NCBI GenBank assembly: GCA_944324465.1
Contig: CALUWI010000005.1
Location: 1-64,000 of the forward strand
DNA: 64,000 bases
Reading direction: 5' to 3'
DNA from: an uncultured Mucispirillum sp.
GTDB taxonomy: Bacteria; Chrysiogenota; Deferribacteres; Deferribacterales; Mucispirillaceae
Position 1 is the stretch's first letter, and every line of letters starts with the position of its first letter. Below are positions 7,390 through 25,710 of the stretch, one piece after another. The translations under genes and the position numbers were made by a program. The notes below the pieces were generated by a model that worked only from the letters and a program-made list of their open reading frames with translations, ran no database searches and was not told where the DNA came from.

Positions 7390-7411
7390 GTAAAATAAAT
7401 TGGAGGAATTT

Positions 7412-8650
7412 GTGAGTCTTGTTGTTATGAAATTTGGCGGCACAAGTGTAGGCAGTATAGAACGCATACGCAATGTTGCAAAAATAGTAGAAAAGAAAAA
7501 AGACGAAGGCCATGATGTTATTGTTGCAGTTTCTGCAATGTCTGGCGAAACTGACAGACTTATCGGCCTTTTAAAAGAAATCACACCTGATTACTCATTA
7601 AGAGAATATGACCAGCTTGTTTCTACAGGTGAAACTGCATGTATCCCGCTTGTTACTCAGGCACTTTTAGTGGATGGATATGATGCAATATCATTAACCG
7701 GTTTACAAATCGGTATGGAAACGGATATTGCTCACTCTAAAGCTCGTATTCTGAATATTAAAGGCGATAGAATAAAAAAAGCAATTAGTGAAGGCAAAAT
7801 AGTTGTTGTAGCAGGTTTTCAAGGCTATAATGTGGAAACTGGAGATATTACCACTTTAGGCAGAGGCGGTTCAGATACTACTGCTGTTGCAATAGCTGCT
7901 GCAGTAAAAGCTGATGTATGCGAAATATATACAGATGTTGACGGCGTATATACTGCTGACCCAAGAATTGTTAAAAATGCTAAAAAATTAGATACTATTT
8001 CCCATGAAGAAATGCTTGAACTTGCATCCCTTGGTGCAAAAGTTCTGCAGTCAAGAAGTGTTGAACTTGGAATGAATTATAATGTAGATATTATGGTGCT
8101 TTCTTCTTTAGAAGATAAACCAGGCACTCTTGTAACATCAAAGGAGGATAAAAATATGGAGCGTATCGTTGTTTCAGGCGTTACTAGTGATAAAAATCAA
8201 GCAAAAATAACACTTTTAGGTGTAAAAGATGAGCCAGGAGTGGCTGCACAAATATTTATAGGTTTAGCAGAAGCAAATATAAATGTAGATATGATTATTC
8301 AAAATGTAGCTAAAGAAGACGGCAAAACTGATATTTCTTTTACAGTTCCTAAAACTGACCTTATAAAAGCTAAAGCAGCATGTGAAAAATTAGGAAAAGA
8401 TGCAGGTGTTACAGAAATATTATCTGATGAAAATATTTCAAAAGTATCTATTGTTGGTATTGGTATGAAAAGCCATTCCGGCGTTGCTGCTACTATGTTT
8501 AAAGTGTTATCAGATAACCAGATTAATATAAAAATGATTTCAACAAGTGAAATAAAAGTTTCCTGCATAATTGAAGAAAAATTTACTGAACTTGCAGTTC
8601 GTGTTCTTCATAGTGCATTTATAACTGAGAAACAAGATGGACAGCTCTAA
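7412..8650 (+). CDS. lysC: Aspartate kinase
   Basis: It phosphorylates aspartate, the committed step to lysine, threonine and methionine. I place the start at the GTG at 7412, giving a 412-residue protein beginning [15 protein letters not shown], because GGAGGA at 7402-7407 is a Shine-Dalgarno that the upstream in-frame TTG at 7400 would overlap. The kinase signature KFGGTSV is at residues 7-13; the STGE and GRGGSDTTA motifs follow. Two C-terminal ACT domains occupy roughly residues 255-412. A strong internal Shine-Dalgarno and ATG at 8140-8158 precede the ACT pair (separate entry). The gene overlaps cimA by 14 nt. Confidence 0.95.
8140..8158 (+). promoter_or_regulatory. Internal ribosome-binding site and start for an aspartokinase beta subunit
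   Basis: AAAGGAGG at 8140-8147 lies 8 nt before an ATG at 8156-8158 that is in frame with lysC (Met249). Initiation there would give a 164-residue protein made of the two ACT domains only. Alpha2-beta2 aspartokinases of Bacillus subtilis and Corynebacterium make their beta subunit from an internal start at the equivalent junction, so this is probably functional. It is one of the best-matched Shine-Dalgarno sequences in the window. Confidence 0.75.
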
Positions 8651-20443: not shown

Positions 20444-20497
20444 TTGACTTTTTTATTGAGATATATTATTAATAAGTATCCCCATACCATAGGGGTA
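20444..20497 (+). promoter_or_regulatory. copA promoter with CsoR-like operator
   Basis: TTGACT (20444-20449) and TATTAA (20467-20472) are 17 bp apart. Immediately downstream, over the expected transcription start, lies CCCC (20480-20483)-N8-GGGG (20492-20495), flanked by TA-rich bases (20477-20497). GC-rich TACCC/GGGTA-type dyads are the known CsoR operators (for example Bacillus subtilis copZA). This block is exceptional in its AT-rich surroundings, and csoR is in the same operon. I infer copper-responsive autoregulation. Confidence 0.75.
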
Positions 20498-20516
20498 GGG
20501 AACATAAGGTGTTTGT

Positions 20517-23003
20517 ATGAAAGAGAAGTATAATATTACAGGTATGACATGCTCTGCATGTTCTGCCCATGTTACAAAAGCAGTATCTAAACTTAATGGG
20601 GTAAAAAATGTTAATGTTAATCTGCTTTCAAATAATATGGTGGTAGAATATGATGATACAATATCCAGCAGTGATATTATATCGGCAGTAACAGAAGCAG
20701 GGTATGGAGCAGAAATAGAAAATAATAAAGGCATGATAAAGCAGGCTCAAAAACTTCCTTATGATACAGAGCTTGATAATATGAAAAAAAGGCTTATTGT
20801 ATCATTTATATTTTTTATTCCTGTAATGTATATGTCTATGGGTAGTATGGCAGGACTGCCTCAGTTTTCTTTTTTTAAGCATTATGAAGGCAGCTTTAAT
20901 TATGCTTTCACTTTATTTTTACTAACAATTCCTGTTTTAATAGTTAACAGGAAGTTTTTTATTAATGGTTTTAAAGCATTAATAAATAAAGCACCTAATA
21001 TGGACAGTCTTGTTGCTCTTGGTTCATCTGCAGCTTTTATATATGGTATATTTGCAATATACAGAATAGGCTATGGATATGCTTATCAGGAAGCATCTAT
21101 AGTTATGAAATACAGCCATGATTTATATTTTGAATCAGCTGTTACAATACTAACATTAATTACTCTTGGAAAATATCTTGAAACAAAATCAAAAAGAAAA
21201 ACTAGAGATGCTGTTGAAAAATTAATCAGCTTAACACCGAAAACTGCTGTTATTGAAAAAGATGGTAAAGAAGTTACTGTTGCGTATGATGATATACGAG
21301 AAGGGGATATTATAATAGTAAAGCCTGGCGGTATTATAGCCTGTGATGGTATAATTATTTCAGGCAGTGCATCTATTGATGAATCTGCTATTACTGGTGA
21401 AAGTATGCCTGTTGAGAAAAAACAGGGGGATAAAGTAATAAGTGCAACTATAAATAAAACTGGTCATATAAAGTTTAAAGCATTAAAAGTAGGCAGTGAT
21501 ACAACATTATCTCAAATAATATCATTAGTAGAAGAAGCAGCAAACTCAAAAGCACCTATTTCTAAACTTGCAGATAAAATTAGTGGAATTTTTGTGCCTG
21601 TAGTAATAATAATTGCTGTAATCTCTGGTCTTTTCTGGCTTTATATGGGTGAAAGTTATGAATTTGCACTTTCTATTGCAATATCTGTTTTAGTAATATC
21701 CTGCCCATGTGCTTTAGGTCTTGCAACACCAGTAGCTATTATGGTAGGCACAGGAAAAGGTGCAGAAAATGGTATCTTAATAAAATCTGCAGAAAGTCTT
21801 GAAATGGCACATAATATAAAAGCTGTTGCTATTGATAAAACAGGCACTATTACTGAAGGAAAAATGAATGTTGTCAATATTCAGTCCTTTAAATACAGTC
21901 AAAATGAATTGCTACAGATTGCTTATTCTATGGAAATAAAATCAGAGCATCCTATTTCAAAAGCTGTTGTTAAAAAAGCAGAGGAATTAAACTGTAAGTT
22001 ATTAAATATTGATAATTTTACTTCCTATTCAGGTCTTGGTATATCATGCACAGTAAATAATAATGTGTACTATGTTGGAAATGGCAAATTTTTATATGAT
22101 AAAAATATAGATATAAATAAAATTTCAAATATGATGCTGCCAAATAAAGCTGCTGCACCTGTTTATATAGCAGAAAATGATGAAGTAATAGGTATTATAT
22201 ATGTGGCAGATACTATTAAAGAATCAAGCATAGAAGCAGTTAAAGGGTTTAAAGAACAGGGCATAGAAGTTTATATGCTTACAGGTGATAATAAGGAAAC
22301 TGCAGAATATATTGCAAATCAGGCAGGTATTAATAATATATATGCAGAGCTTTTGCCACAGGATAAAGAAAAAATAATTAGAGAGCTGCAGGCAAAAGGG
22401 CTTAAAACTGCAATGGTGGGAGATGGCATAAATGATGCACCTGCATTAATGCGTTCTGATTTAGGAATAGCAATAGGGGCAGGTACTGATGTGGCAGTAG
22501 AATCAGCAGATATTGTTTTAATTAAAAATAATCTTTTAGATGCATTAACTGCTGTAAAATTAAGCCATGCAACTATTAAAAATATTAAAACTAACTTATT
22601 CTGGGCATTTTTTTATAATATTATAGGTATTCCTGTGGCTGCTGGTGTCTTTTATACTTCATTTGGTATAACATTAAACCCAATGATAGCAGCAGCTGCA
22701 ATGAGTTTCAGCTCAATATTTGTTGTAACTAACGCTTTAAGATTAAAATTTTTTAAAGCAGAAAAATATAGTAAAGGAGATAAACTTATGAAAGTTATTG
22801 TGAATGTAAACGGTATGAACTGCAACCATTGTAAAATGGCAGTTGAAAAAGCATTAAATACTGTAGATGGAGTAGTTTCTGCTGAAGTTAATTTAGAAGC
22901 AAAAAATGCATCTGTTACATTATCAAAAGAAGTTGCAGACAGTGATTTAATGAATGTTGTAAATGAAGCTGGATTTGAAGCAGTTTCTGTGGAGAAAGCA
23001 TAG
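20517..23003 (+). CDS. copA: Cu(I)-exporting P-type ATPase CopA with C-terminal CopZ-like domain
   Basis: This inner-membrane pump exports Cu(I) from the cytosol. The 828-residue protein has an N-terminal HMA domain with Cys12-x-x-Cys15 (GMTCSAC), eight predicted helices, the transport motif Cys396-Pro-Cys398, phosphorylation site Asp440 (DKTGT) and GDGINDAP from about residue 635. The late-helix motifs YN (YNIIGIP) and MSFSS mark the Cu(I) class P1B-1. Residues 758-828 form a second, complete HMA domain with Cys769-x-x-Cys772, preceded by its own Shine-Dalgarno and ATG (separate entry). An HMA domain at the C terminus is unusual. csoR begins directly after the TAG. Confidence 0.95.
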   Translation: MKEKYNITGMTCSACSAHVTKAVSKLNGVKNVNVNLLSNNMVVEYDDTISSSDIISAVTEAGYGAEIENNKGMIKQAQKLPYDTELDNMKKRLIVSFIFFIPVMYMSMGSMAGLPQFSFFKHYEGSFNYAFTLFLLTIPVLIVNRKFFINGFKALINKAPNMDSLVALGSSAAFIYGIFAIYRIGYGYAYQEASIVMKYSHDLYFESAVTILTLITLGKYLETKSKRKTRDAVEKLISLTPKTAVIEKDGKEVTVAYDDIREGDIIIVKPGGIIACDGIIISGSASIDESAITGESMPVEKKQGDKVISATINKTGHIKFKALKVGSDTTLSQIISLVEEAANSKAPISKLADKISGIFVPVVIIIAVISGLFWLYMGESYEFALSIAISVLVISCPCALGLATPVAIMVGTGKGAENGILIKSAESLEMAHNIKAVAIDKTGTITEGKMNVVNIQSFKYSQNELLQIAYSMEIKSEHPISKAVVKKAEELNCKLLNIDNFTSYSGLGISCTVNNNVYYVGNGKFLYDKNIDINKISNMMLPNKAAAPVYIAENDEVIGIIYVADTIKESSIEAVKGFKEQGIEVYMLTGDNKETAEYIANQAGINNIYAELLPQDKEKIIRELQAKGLKTAMVGDGINDAPALMRSDLGIAIGAGTDVAVESADIVLIKNNLLDALTAVKLSHATIKNIKTNLFWAFFYNIIGIPVAAGVFYTSFGITLNPMIAAAAMSFSSIFVVTNALRLKFFKAEKYSKGDKLMKVIVNVNGMNCNHCKMAVEKALNTVDGVVSAEVNLEAKNASVTLSKEVADSDLMNVVNEAGFEAVSVEKA
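22773..22790 (+). promoter_or_regulatory. Internal ribosome-binding site and start for a CopZ-like copper chaperone
   Basis: AAAGGAGA at 22773-22780 precedes an in-frame ATG at 22788-22790 by a standard distance (8 nt from GGAG). The ATG starts exactly at the HMA fold (MKVIVNVNGMNCNHC). Initiation there would give a 71-residue protein with the size and CxxC site of CopZ. There is no stop between the ATPase and this domain, so a full-length fusion and a free chaperone could both be made. Confidence 0.7.
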
Positions 23004-23267
23004 ATGAAAGCAGATAAAGCTGAAGTGCTGCCACTTTTAAAAACGGCAAAAGGTCATATAGAAGGTATTATTCGTATGGTAGAAGATGACAGATACTGTA
23101 TGGATATTTCAAACCAGATATTTGCTGTAGAAGCTCTTATGCGTAAAACAAACAAGATAGTTTTAAAAGCTCATTTATTATCATGTGTTTATGCTGCAGC
23201 AAAAAGTGGTGATGTAGATAAAAAAATAGATGAACTTGTTTCTATGCTTAATACATTAATGAAATAA
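23004..23267 (+). CDS. csoR: Copper-sensing transcriptional repressor CsoR
   Basis: CsoR-family repressors (formerly DUF156) are all-helical and release DNA on binding Cu(I). The 87-residue protein has the diagnostic ligand set Cys32-x24-His57-x3-Cys61, which matches the Cys-His-Cys spacing of CsoR, and the early helix LLKTAKGHIEGIIRMVEDDRYC. It follows the copA TAG directly, with GGAG 9 nt before the ATG, so it is cotranscribed. It probably acts on the CCCC-N8-GGGG operator upstream of copA. Related sensors of nickel (RcnR) or persulfide (CstR) differ in their ligands; the copA linkage favours copper. Confidence 0.92.
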   Translation: MKADKAEVLPLLKTAKGHIEGIIRMVEDDRYCMDISNQIFAVEALMRKTNKIVLKAHLLSCVYAAAKSGDVDKKIDELVSMLNTLMK

Positions 23268-23314: not shown

Positions 23315-23620
23315 TTACTGTTTAAAAAAATTATCCATTTCTTTTATAATGGATAAAATTTCAGGAACTGCTTCTTCGCCATAAATTTCATATATTTCTT
23401 TTATTTTTTCAAAATAAGGCATAGCTTTTTTTATTTTTAAAAGAGGTATTTTGCTTGGAGAATATTCTATAAGCATACTTCCAGTTATTTCATTTACAGT
23501 AATATTTTCAACTGATTTTGAAGCCATCAGCATATCAGTTATTTGTCTGCTTATTTCACTGTTTTTTAAAAGTGATGCTTTTAAACGAACTCTGCCTTCA
23601 AAAAAGCTTGATACTATCAT
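23315..23620 (-). CDS. HMA-like (HMA2-type) small protein
   Basis: The 101-residue protein has a beta-alpha-beta-beta-alpha-like pattern. Its start (SSFFEGRVRLKASLLKNSEISRQI) and middle (VENITVNEITGSMLIEYSPSKI) parallel the N-terminal domain of the adjacent ATPase (HKLPGRIRLHY, IKSININPLTCSILIYYS). It therefore looks like a free copy of the HMA2-type ferredoxin-like domain. It has no CxxC or any Cys, so it is unlikely to bind Cu(I) as classical HMA domains do. It overlaps the ATPase gene by 4 nt (ATGA). A role as an ATPase partner or regulator is inferred from context only. Confidence 0.7.
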   Translation of the reverse strand: MIVSSFFEGRVRLKASLLKNSEISRQITDMLMASKSVENITVNEITGSMLIEYSPSKIPLLKIKKAMPYFEKIKEIYEIYGEEAVPEILSIIKEMDNFFKQ

Positions 23621-25710
23621 TTTTTCTCCTTTAACATAGGTCGCATTGCATTTGCACTAATACTTACAGTTAATGTATTATGCAGAAGTGCTGCTGTTGA
23701 TGGTTTAATTATACCCATAAGCCCTGCTAATATTAATAAAGAATTACCTGCAATAATAATTTTATTATTTAAAGATATTCTTTTTAAAAGTTCCTGACCT
23801 AATATTCTTGTTTCATACAGGCTTTCTATACCTTTATCACTAAGTATAATGTCAGCAGTTTCTCCGGCAATATCAGAACTTCCTTTCATAGCTATTCCTG
23901 CATTTGCAGAAGCAAGAGCAGGGGAGTCGTTTATTCCATCACCTGTCATTATAACTTTATGACCATTTTTACGCATATTTTTAACATAAGCTGTTTTATC
24001 TTCTGGAAGTGCCTGAGAAACATAATCATCAGCATTAATAATTTTAGCTGCTTTTGCAGCTGCTTTTTCACTGTCTCCAGTAATCATTATAATATTTTCA
24101 ATACCTGTTTTTCTTAAGTTATCAACAACTTCTGCAGCATTTGGCAGCACAGGGTCATCAATTAAAATAATACCCATAAGTTTATTATCCATAGCAAGGT
24201 ATAAAATAGAGCTGCAGTCTTTAGATGCCTGCTCAATAATTTCTTTTTCTTCCTGTGTAATATGTGTTTTTTCATCATCAAATATAAAATGAGCACTGCC
24301 TATAGCAACTTTTTTATTATGCAGAGTAGAAGCGATACCATGGGCTACAATATATTCTACTTTTGCATGTTCTTCTTTATGGTCTATGCCTTTATTTGCT
24401 GCTTCCTGCACAACAGCTCTTGCAAGCGGGTGGGGGAAGTGTTCTTCTAAACAGGCAGCTGTTTTTAATACTTCTTCTGTAGAGTAATTGTTAAAAGCTA
24501 TAATATTTATCACTTTTGGAGATGCATTTGTTAAAGTACCAGTTTTATCAAAAATAATAGTATCTGCATTTGCAGTTTCTTCAAGAAATTTGCCGCCTTT
24601 TACTATAATACCGTATTTAGCAGCTTCTTTCATAGCTGATAGATTAGCAATAGGTGCTGCAAGCTTCATAGCACAGGAATAATCTACCATTAATGTTGAA
24701 GATGTTTTAATAATATCTCTAGTTACAAGATAAGTTGAGCCTGCAAGTAAAAAGTTATATGGCACTAGTTTATCTGCTAATCTTTCAGCTTTTTCCTGTG
24801 CAGCTGATTTAAGATTATTTGCATCATCTATTAATTTAACTATTTTACTTACTTTTGTATCTTTTCCTGCAGCAGTGATTTTTAAAATAATTTCGCCTTC
24901 TTCTACAAGTGTTCCAGCATATACTGCATCATCTATTTCTTTTTTAACAGGCAGACTTTCGCCAGTGATAGATGCCTGGTTAATCATAGCTTCCCCATGG
25001 ATTATAATACCATCAGCATGTATAGTCTGGCCTGTTCTAACTATTATTTTATCATCTTTTTTTAAAGTATGGGATAATACTGAATATTCCTGTCCATTAT
25101 CATTTATAACTCTTGCCTGCTCCTGCAGGTTAAGTAAAGATTCAGCAAGATTATCATAAGATTTACGCTTTGCATAATCTTCTAAAGTTTCCCCCATATT
25201 TAAAAGGAAATTAATAGAGCCTGCAGTTTTATAATCACCATTTGCAATAGATAAGCTGATAGCTGCTGCATCAAGAGTTTCTGAAATTAACTGCTTTTGC
25301 ATAAGCAGTGTTTTTAACCCCTGCTTTATTCTTGGTATAGTATTTATCATTGTAATAATTCTACGAACAGGAACAGGCAGAAATGCTTTACTGAAATGTT
25401 TTGCTGTCATCATAAATAAATTTGCAGCAATACTTGTTTCTGCCTTTGTTTCATTAATAGAATTAAGCATATCTTCATCGTTTAAATAATCATCATTTAA
25501 AGCTTTAAATAATGCTAATATCTGCTTTTCTGAAATATCGCTGTAATAAATCAATATAGAACAAGTTAACGGGTTAATGTTAATACTTTTTATACCTTCT
25601 TGAGTAGATAAAAGCACTTTAACAAGTGTAGTCTGTTTATTAGTTAAAGTGCCTTTATTATAATGAAGGCGTATTCGTCCAGGAAGTTTATGAACTATTT
25701 TAACATCCAT
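23617..25710 (-). CDS. P1B-type heavy-metal ATPase with non-canonical Y-S-C motif
   Basis: The 697-residue pump has an N-terminal HMA2-like domain without CxxC (about 1-70) and an actuator domain with ITGES. The phosphorylation site is Asp388 (DKTGTLTN), and GDGINDSPA follows. In the transport helix the canonical CPC is replaced: the motif reads YSCAMKLAAPI, with Cys346 aligned to the second Cys and Ser in place of Pro. The last helix carries HNTLTVSISANAMRPM. The membrane part looks shorter than in CopA. The metal cannot be named; manganese or zinc, as proposed for mycobacterial CtpC, would fit the small partner gene upstream. GAGG precedes the ATG. Confidence 0.85.
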   Translation of the reverse strand: MDVKIVHKLPGRIRLHYNKGTLTNKQTTLVKVLLSTQEGIKSININPLTCSILIYYSDISEKQILALFKALNDDYLNDEDMLNSINETKAETSIAANLFMMTAKHFSKAFLPVPVRRIITMINTIPRIKQGLKTLLMQKQLISETLDAAAISLSIANGDYKTAGSINFLLNMGETLEDYAKRKSYDNLAESLLNLQEQARVINDNGQEYSVLSHTLKKDDKIIVRTGQTIHADGIIIHGEAMINQASITGESLPVKKEIDDAVYAGTLVEEGEIILKITAAGKDTKVSKIVKLIDDANNLKSAAQEKAERLADKLVPYNFLLAGSTYLVTRDIIKTSSTLMVDYSCAMKLAAPIANLSAMKEAAKYGIIVKGGKFLEETANADTIIFDKTGTLTNASPKVINIIAFNNYSTEEVLKTAACLEEHFPHPLARAVVQEAANKGIDHKEEHAKVEYIVAHGIASTLHNKKVAIGSAHFIFDDEKTHITQEEKEIIEQASKDCSSILYLAMDNKLMGIILIDDPVLPNAAEVVDNLRKTGIENIIMITGDSEKAAAKAAKIINADDYVSQALPEDKTAYVKNMRKNGHKVIMTGDGINDSPALASANAGIAMKGSSDIAGETADIILSDKGIESLYETRILGQELLKRISLNNKIIIAGNSLLILAGLMGIIKPSTAALLHNTLTVSISANAMRPMLKEKK

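Follow-up and report, generated by a model that had tools for sequence, protein, structure and literature searches.

The copA gene of Mucispirillum very likely encodes two proteins on a single mRNA, i.e. the fused copper pump and, beside it, a free CopZ chaperone that would be produced by internal initiation at a conserved Shine-Dalgarno (SD) sequence and ATG within the gene. This interpretation comes from comparison of sequences, without expression data; initiation at the site and the activity of the chaperone are inferred. Internal initiation had been put forward from the sequence of the locus alone, and it is supported by conservation of the site in eight of eight Mucispirillum genes and by nucleotide-level selection across a clade of Clostridia. 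It also appears likely that copZ-in-copA is a clade-wide, in-frame nested gene of gut Clostridia that reached Mucispirillum by transfer, and that it is an independent counterpart to the frameshifting of E. coli copA.

The window, i.e. the whole 64,000 nucleotide stretch of DNA analyzed, carries copA on its forward strand together with the features listed in Table 1. The translated product scores 598.4 bits with TIGR01511 (cut-off 397), has the CPC motif in its translation and displays an HMA domain at amino acid positions 5–63; it thus qualifies as a CopA copper-exporting P1B-type ATPase. The csoR-like gene directly adjoins the copA stop codon (TAG, 23001–23003). Variant forms of the CsoR-operator-like palindrome are also found upstream of the other Mucispirillum copA genes. 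An Rfam search of the copA region gave no match. Positions 23315–25710 on the minus strand, convergent with the copA-csoR operon, contain a 697 aa P-type ATPase, whose HMA_2 domain is weak, and a 101 aa open reading frame.

Table 1. Positions of copA, its nested segment and adjoining elements in the window.
Feature	Position	Strand	Remarks
Palindrome CCCCATACCATAGGGGTAGGG, CsoR-operator-like, 5′ of copA	20480..20500	+	Read directly; regulatory role inferred
copA	20517..23003	+	828 aa copper-exporting P1B-type ATPase, HMA domain at both ends; TIGR01511, CPC motif
N-terminal HMA domain, CSAC type	20529..20705	+	Pfam HMA, 63.7 bits
Internal Shine-Dalgarno, AAAGGAG	22773..22779	+	Pairs with the anti-SD at −8.0 kcal/mol; conserved throughout the clade more strongly than synonymous resampling predicts
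Nested in-frame copZ (putative), CxHC-type HMA domain	22788..23003	+	ATG and 71 codons, stop common to copA
csoR-like metal-sensing repressor gene	23004..23267	+	Pfam Trns_repr_metal, 82.8 bits

The original prediction described an AAAGGAG and an in-frame ATG ahead of the C-terminal domain with no intervening stop codon, and read the last 71 codons as a complete HMA domain with the motif Cys769-x-x-Cys772. The positions of the SD and ATG are correct to the base, the motif reads C769-N-H-C772, and the Pfam HMA model covers the full segment (52.3 bits vs. 24.8). The ATG is codon 758 of copA, is separated from AAAGGAG by a spacer of 8 nt, and is followed by 71 codons up to the TAG. The site meets the sequence criterion for a nested gene in that it has an in-frame start, an SD at a working distance and conservation beyond protein constraint. 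A canonical 16S 3′ end with the anti-SD (TGGATCACCTCCTT) is present in two copies in a complete Mucispirillum genome; the 16S 3′ end was not found in the assembly to which the window belongs.

The window contains a single exact AAAGGAG-N8-ATG where 0.18 occurrences are expected from dinucleotide shuffles, and the looser pattern AGGAG-N5-10-ATG gives 12 matches vs. 7.5 expected. Because of these figures the single copA site is by itself weak evidence, suggestive but not decisive, and its significance comes from the comparison with relatives. The 12 looser matches are mostly ordinary gene starts; just two are found well within a longer open reading frame and in its frame, the copA site at 22788 and one in an aspartokinase gene at 8156.

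The closest copA sequences in named genomes are from the genus Mucispirillum, with identities of up to 94%. Eight distinct genes were compared, including that of the window, and these are 71–100% identical. All retain the ATG and an SD, the latter in the form AAAGGAG, AAAGGGG, CAAGGGG or AAGAGGT and with energies of −7.1 to −8.0 kcal/mol. One of them (L012) has QEV in the linker in place of KGE/KGD, yet the SD is still present. Loss of both elements in close relatives that keep the C-terminal HMA domain would have refuted the original prediction, and no such loss was seen. The possibility that relatives carry a split copZ was borne out in other Deferribacterales, where copA and copZ are separate and each copZ has its own SD. 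No stand-alone HMA protein was detected in the assembly of the window (97.5% complete), whose four HMA matches are all in long open reading frames of P-type ATPase size. Stand-alone HMA proteins are likewise absent from five of six further Mucispirillum genomes; the sixth (G001) shows one weak match of 25 bits in a 101 aa frame.

A scan of genome contigs, together with 150 evenly drawn Lachnospiraceae genomes, gave a wider sample of 162 distinct pumps with a fused C-terminal HMA domain. An in-frame ATG is found at the domain boundary in 149 of these, and in 132 it is located exactly eight residues before the HMA glycine. Where a strong SD is defined as −6 kcal/mol or lower, 90% of the 149 boundary ATGs have one, compared with 5.3% of 3710 other in-frame ATGs in the same genes; at a second threshold of −8 kcal/mol or lower the values are 74% and 0.7%. 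The validation set from Lachnospiraceae agrees with the discovery set (up to L114), strong SDs being present in 67/77 and 67/72, respectively. When synonymous codons were resampled from the usage of each gene, strong SDs were expected in only 36% of cases (Wilcoxon p = 7e-25), and the control ATGs showed no shift. After removal of similar genes (32 genes remaining, <65% identity) the observed and expected values were 88% and 35% (p = 1e-7).

The five residues that precede the nested Met occur as 116 different strings, and the SD signal is present in fused genes that span 30–67% G+C. The distance from SD to ATG is nearly fixed, mostly 8–9 nt, and the distance from the pump core to the start ranges from 8 to 101 codons. 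The mRNA near the nested ATG is less structured than its synonymous versions (−1.26 vs. −2.27 kcal/mol). The contrast in structure between nested and other ATGs (−1.2 vs. −8.3 kcal/mol) is confounded by the A-rich linker and was not accepted as evidence. Given the excess of SDs over the synonymous null, the near-fixed spacing, the variable core distance and the G+C range, selection appears to act on the nucleotide signal in its role of start site and not on the linker or the distance to the membrane. The putative device is not peculiar to the Mucispirillum lineage; judged by these comparisons it is a clade-wide property of the fused copA family in Clostridia.

The nested segment is of the CopZ type. 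It is a complete Pfam HMA domain with the sequence GMNCNHC, in agreement with the MxCxxC motif of CopZ, and its length of 71 aa is that expected of CopZ (the family median is 69 aa). The CxHC motif is found in 152 of the 162 C-terminal domains and in 14 of 15 separate CopZ proteins, but in none of 158 N-terminal domains; MxCxHC is a signature of CopZ2-like chaperones (PMC7558416). A tree of HMA domains separates the N-terminal domains completely from the others, with every C-terminal domain falling together with the separate CopZ proteins (support 0.999). The 71 aa segment thus has its affinity with stand-alone CopZ and not with the N-terminal domains of the pumps. The NCBIfam cut-offs for CopZ are not reached by the segment, the best score being 67.6 bits for CopZ_AFE_1862 (cut-off 85), with 48.9 bits for TIGR00003 (cut-off 62). 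It is therefore termed CopZ-type and not a certified member of the family.

Thirteen of the 162 fused genes lack an ATG at the first C-terminal HMA domain. Two of these, both from Lachnospiraceae (L190 and L219), carry a pair of HMA domains in tandem at the C-terminus, of which only the second has an ATG with a strong SD (−8.1 and −10.9). A third (L169) has a TTG start behind AGGAGG (−11.3) in place of the ATG. The other ten show no ATG, GTG or TTG with an SD at the junction and are mostly of the Ruminococcus flavefaciens type; the free form therefore appears dispensable for some. An SD-like stretch at the equivalent place is present in two of the 13 genes and absent in 11. By simple count the combined absence of SD and ATG stands out, but it represents six to seven independent events and is not significant once relatedness is controlled. 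No clear complementarity was seen between a lost nested start and a separate CopZ gene at another locus. The R. flavefaciens-type genes L068, L070, L072, L078, L092 and L113, which are fused and have neither an internal start nor an SD, form a natural start-less comparison group.

In the proposed mechanism, initiation at nt 20517 would give the full pump with its C-terminal CopZ-like domain. Other 30S subunits would bind at AAAGGAG and begin at Met758, which would give a free CopZ of about 7.5 kDa. This protein is presumed to collect Cu(I) and deliver it to the pump. Copper would induce copA, probably through the adjoining CsoR, and pump and chaperone would then rise together; this control by copper is likewise an inference. 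An SD within an open reading frame must compete with elongating ribosomes, and this counts against internal initiation.

The tree of pump cores places 161 fused genes and eight others in one clade (support 100). Two of the eight (L097 and L126) are actually fused but are short or cut by a contig end. The Mucispirillum copA branches within genes from Clostridia and Anaerococcus and away from the split copA/copZ of other Deferribacterales. Because it sits inside a clade of Clostridia pumps, Mucispirillum probably obtained copA, with its nested start, by horizontal transfer. Split forms with a stop codon before the SD are found both inside the clade (L117 and L120) and outside of it (L013, L015, L019 and L034, in the same order), and represent the state that precedes, or results from, a fused gene. 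As in the fused genes, a CopZ-type sequence with an SD and ATG of its own comes after the pump, and the separate copZ is mostly of the CxHC type, like the nested one. Unlike the fused copA, however, these operons have a stop codon between copA and copZ and no fused product. The fusion probably arose in a copA-copZ operon through loss of the copA stop codon, which turned the intergenic region, SD included, into the linker. The arrangement would then have spread across Clostridia and been passed on to Mucispirillum; the order of these events is inferred.

The SD and ATG may be used on a separate short transcript, a copZ mRNA formed from an internal copA promoter or by processing, so that the free form would owe as much to transcription as to initiation within the long mRNA. 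This is improbable but remains open, and such a transcript could act together with the internal start. Differential transcript formation accompanies frameshifting in E. coli, to judge from a title cited in PMC7558416 (Drees 2017). The A+T-rich copA gene does contain promoter-like matches, but their number barely exceeds that in shuffled sequences (29 vs. 21.7, sd 4.5). A short transcript would moreover add to the nested start and not contradict it.

It is very unlikely that the two elements are a relic of the copA-copZ fusion, now unused, with the fused pump as the sole product. The presence of split copA/copZ with the same SD in relatives, as well as the ten fused genes without a start, would be consistent with a relic. 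A relic should however decay to the synonymous expectation, whereas strong SDs persist at 90% vs. 36% in pumps that are as little as 46–60% identical.

SD-like sequences within open reading frames have been proposed to pause ribosomes. The stretch in copA is located after the last membrane helix and could slow ribosomes there for insertion or folding, the ATG being incidental, but there is very little to recommend this. The position of the SD is fixed with respect to the ATG and not to the membrane part, it is found at the last domain in genes with tandem domains, and most of the ATG-less genes also have no SD there. A chance occurrence of AAAGGAG and ATG in an A-rich linker can be practically dismissed, for although 0.18 such sites are expected per window, and Lys/Glu linkers favor AAGGAG so that the synonymous null is already 36%, the excess over that null is clade-wide and extends to genes of 30% to 67% G+C. 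Three observations thus speak against relic, pausing and chance alike, namely selection at the nucleotide level, the fixed spacing of SD and ATG, and the genes with tandem domains.

Internal initiation, the preferred reading, has a parallel in the copA gene of E. coli, where the free chaperone CopA(Z) is produced by programmed −1 frameshifting (Meydan 2017; Drees 2017), as far as can be gathered from the accounts in PMC7558416 and PMC5009743. Here again, one gene would provide the pump together with a free chaperone some 70 aa long, without a separate copZ gene. According to the same accounts, the E. coli chaperone is the N-terminal domain and the frameshift, which involves a slippery site, a pseudoknot and the nascent chain, leads to an early stop. 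In the Mucispirillum copA the putative chaperone corresponds to the opposite, C-terminal end of the protein, lies in the zero frame, has an SD and ATG of its own and shares the stop codon of the pump. The locus therefore does not belong to the E. coli type.

No description of internal initiation in copA was found in the open-access literature searched. If the proposal is correct, it is a second, mechanistically unrelated route to a pump and a chaperone from one gene. Many gut Firmicutes that seemingly have only a pump would also make a free copper chaperone, which would be overlooked in annotation, since nested starts in the same frame are not usually called. The question of why cells want both tethered and free copies of the domain would become testable by a one-codon mutation, and a natural comparison set is at hand in genes with the start present, the start lost, a split gene or a tandem domain.

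Starts of this kind are known from other gene families. In Bacillus subtilis a single gene, lysC, gives both the alpha and the beta subunit of aspartokinase II by means of an internal start in the same frame. Proteoform pairs such as those of ClpB and InfB arise in the same manner (PMC11005335). In common with these, copA has an in-frame start and an SD deep in a longer open reading frame, which would yield a separate C-terminal protein. It differs from aspartokinase II in gene family and in that the nested product would be a free metal chaperone derived from a membrane protein and not an enzyme subunit. The window itself contains an aspartate kinase gene at positions 7394–8647 of the plus strand (NF005155, 581 bits). 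It displays an in-frame AGGAGG-N9-ATG whose ATG at 8156 would yield a 164 aa C-terminal product, an arrangement like that of the alpha and beta subunits of the B. subtilis enzyme.
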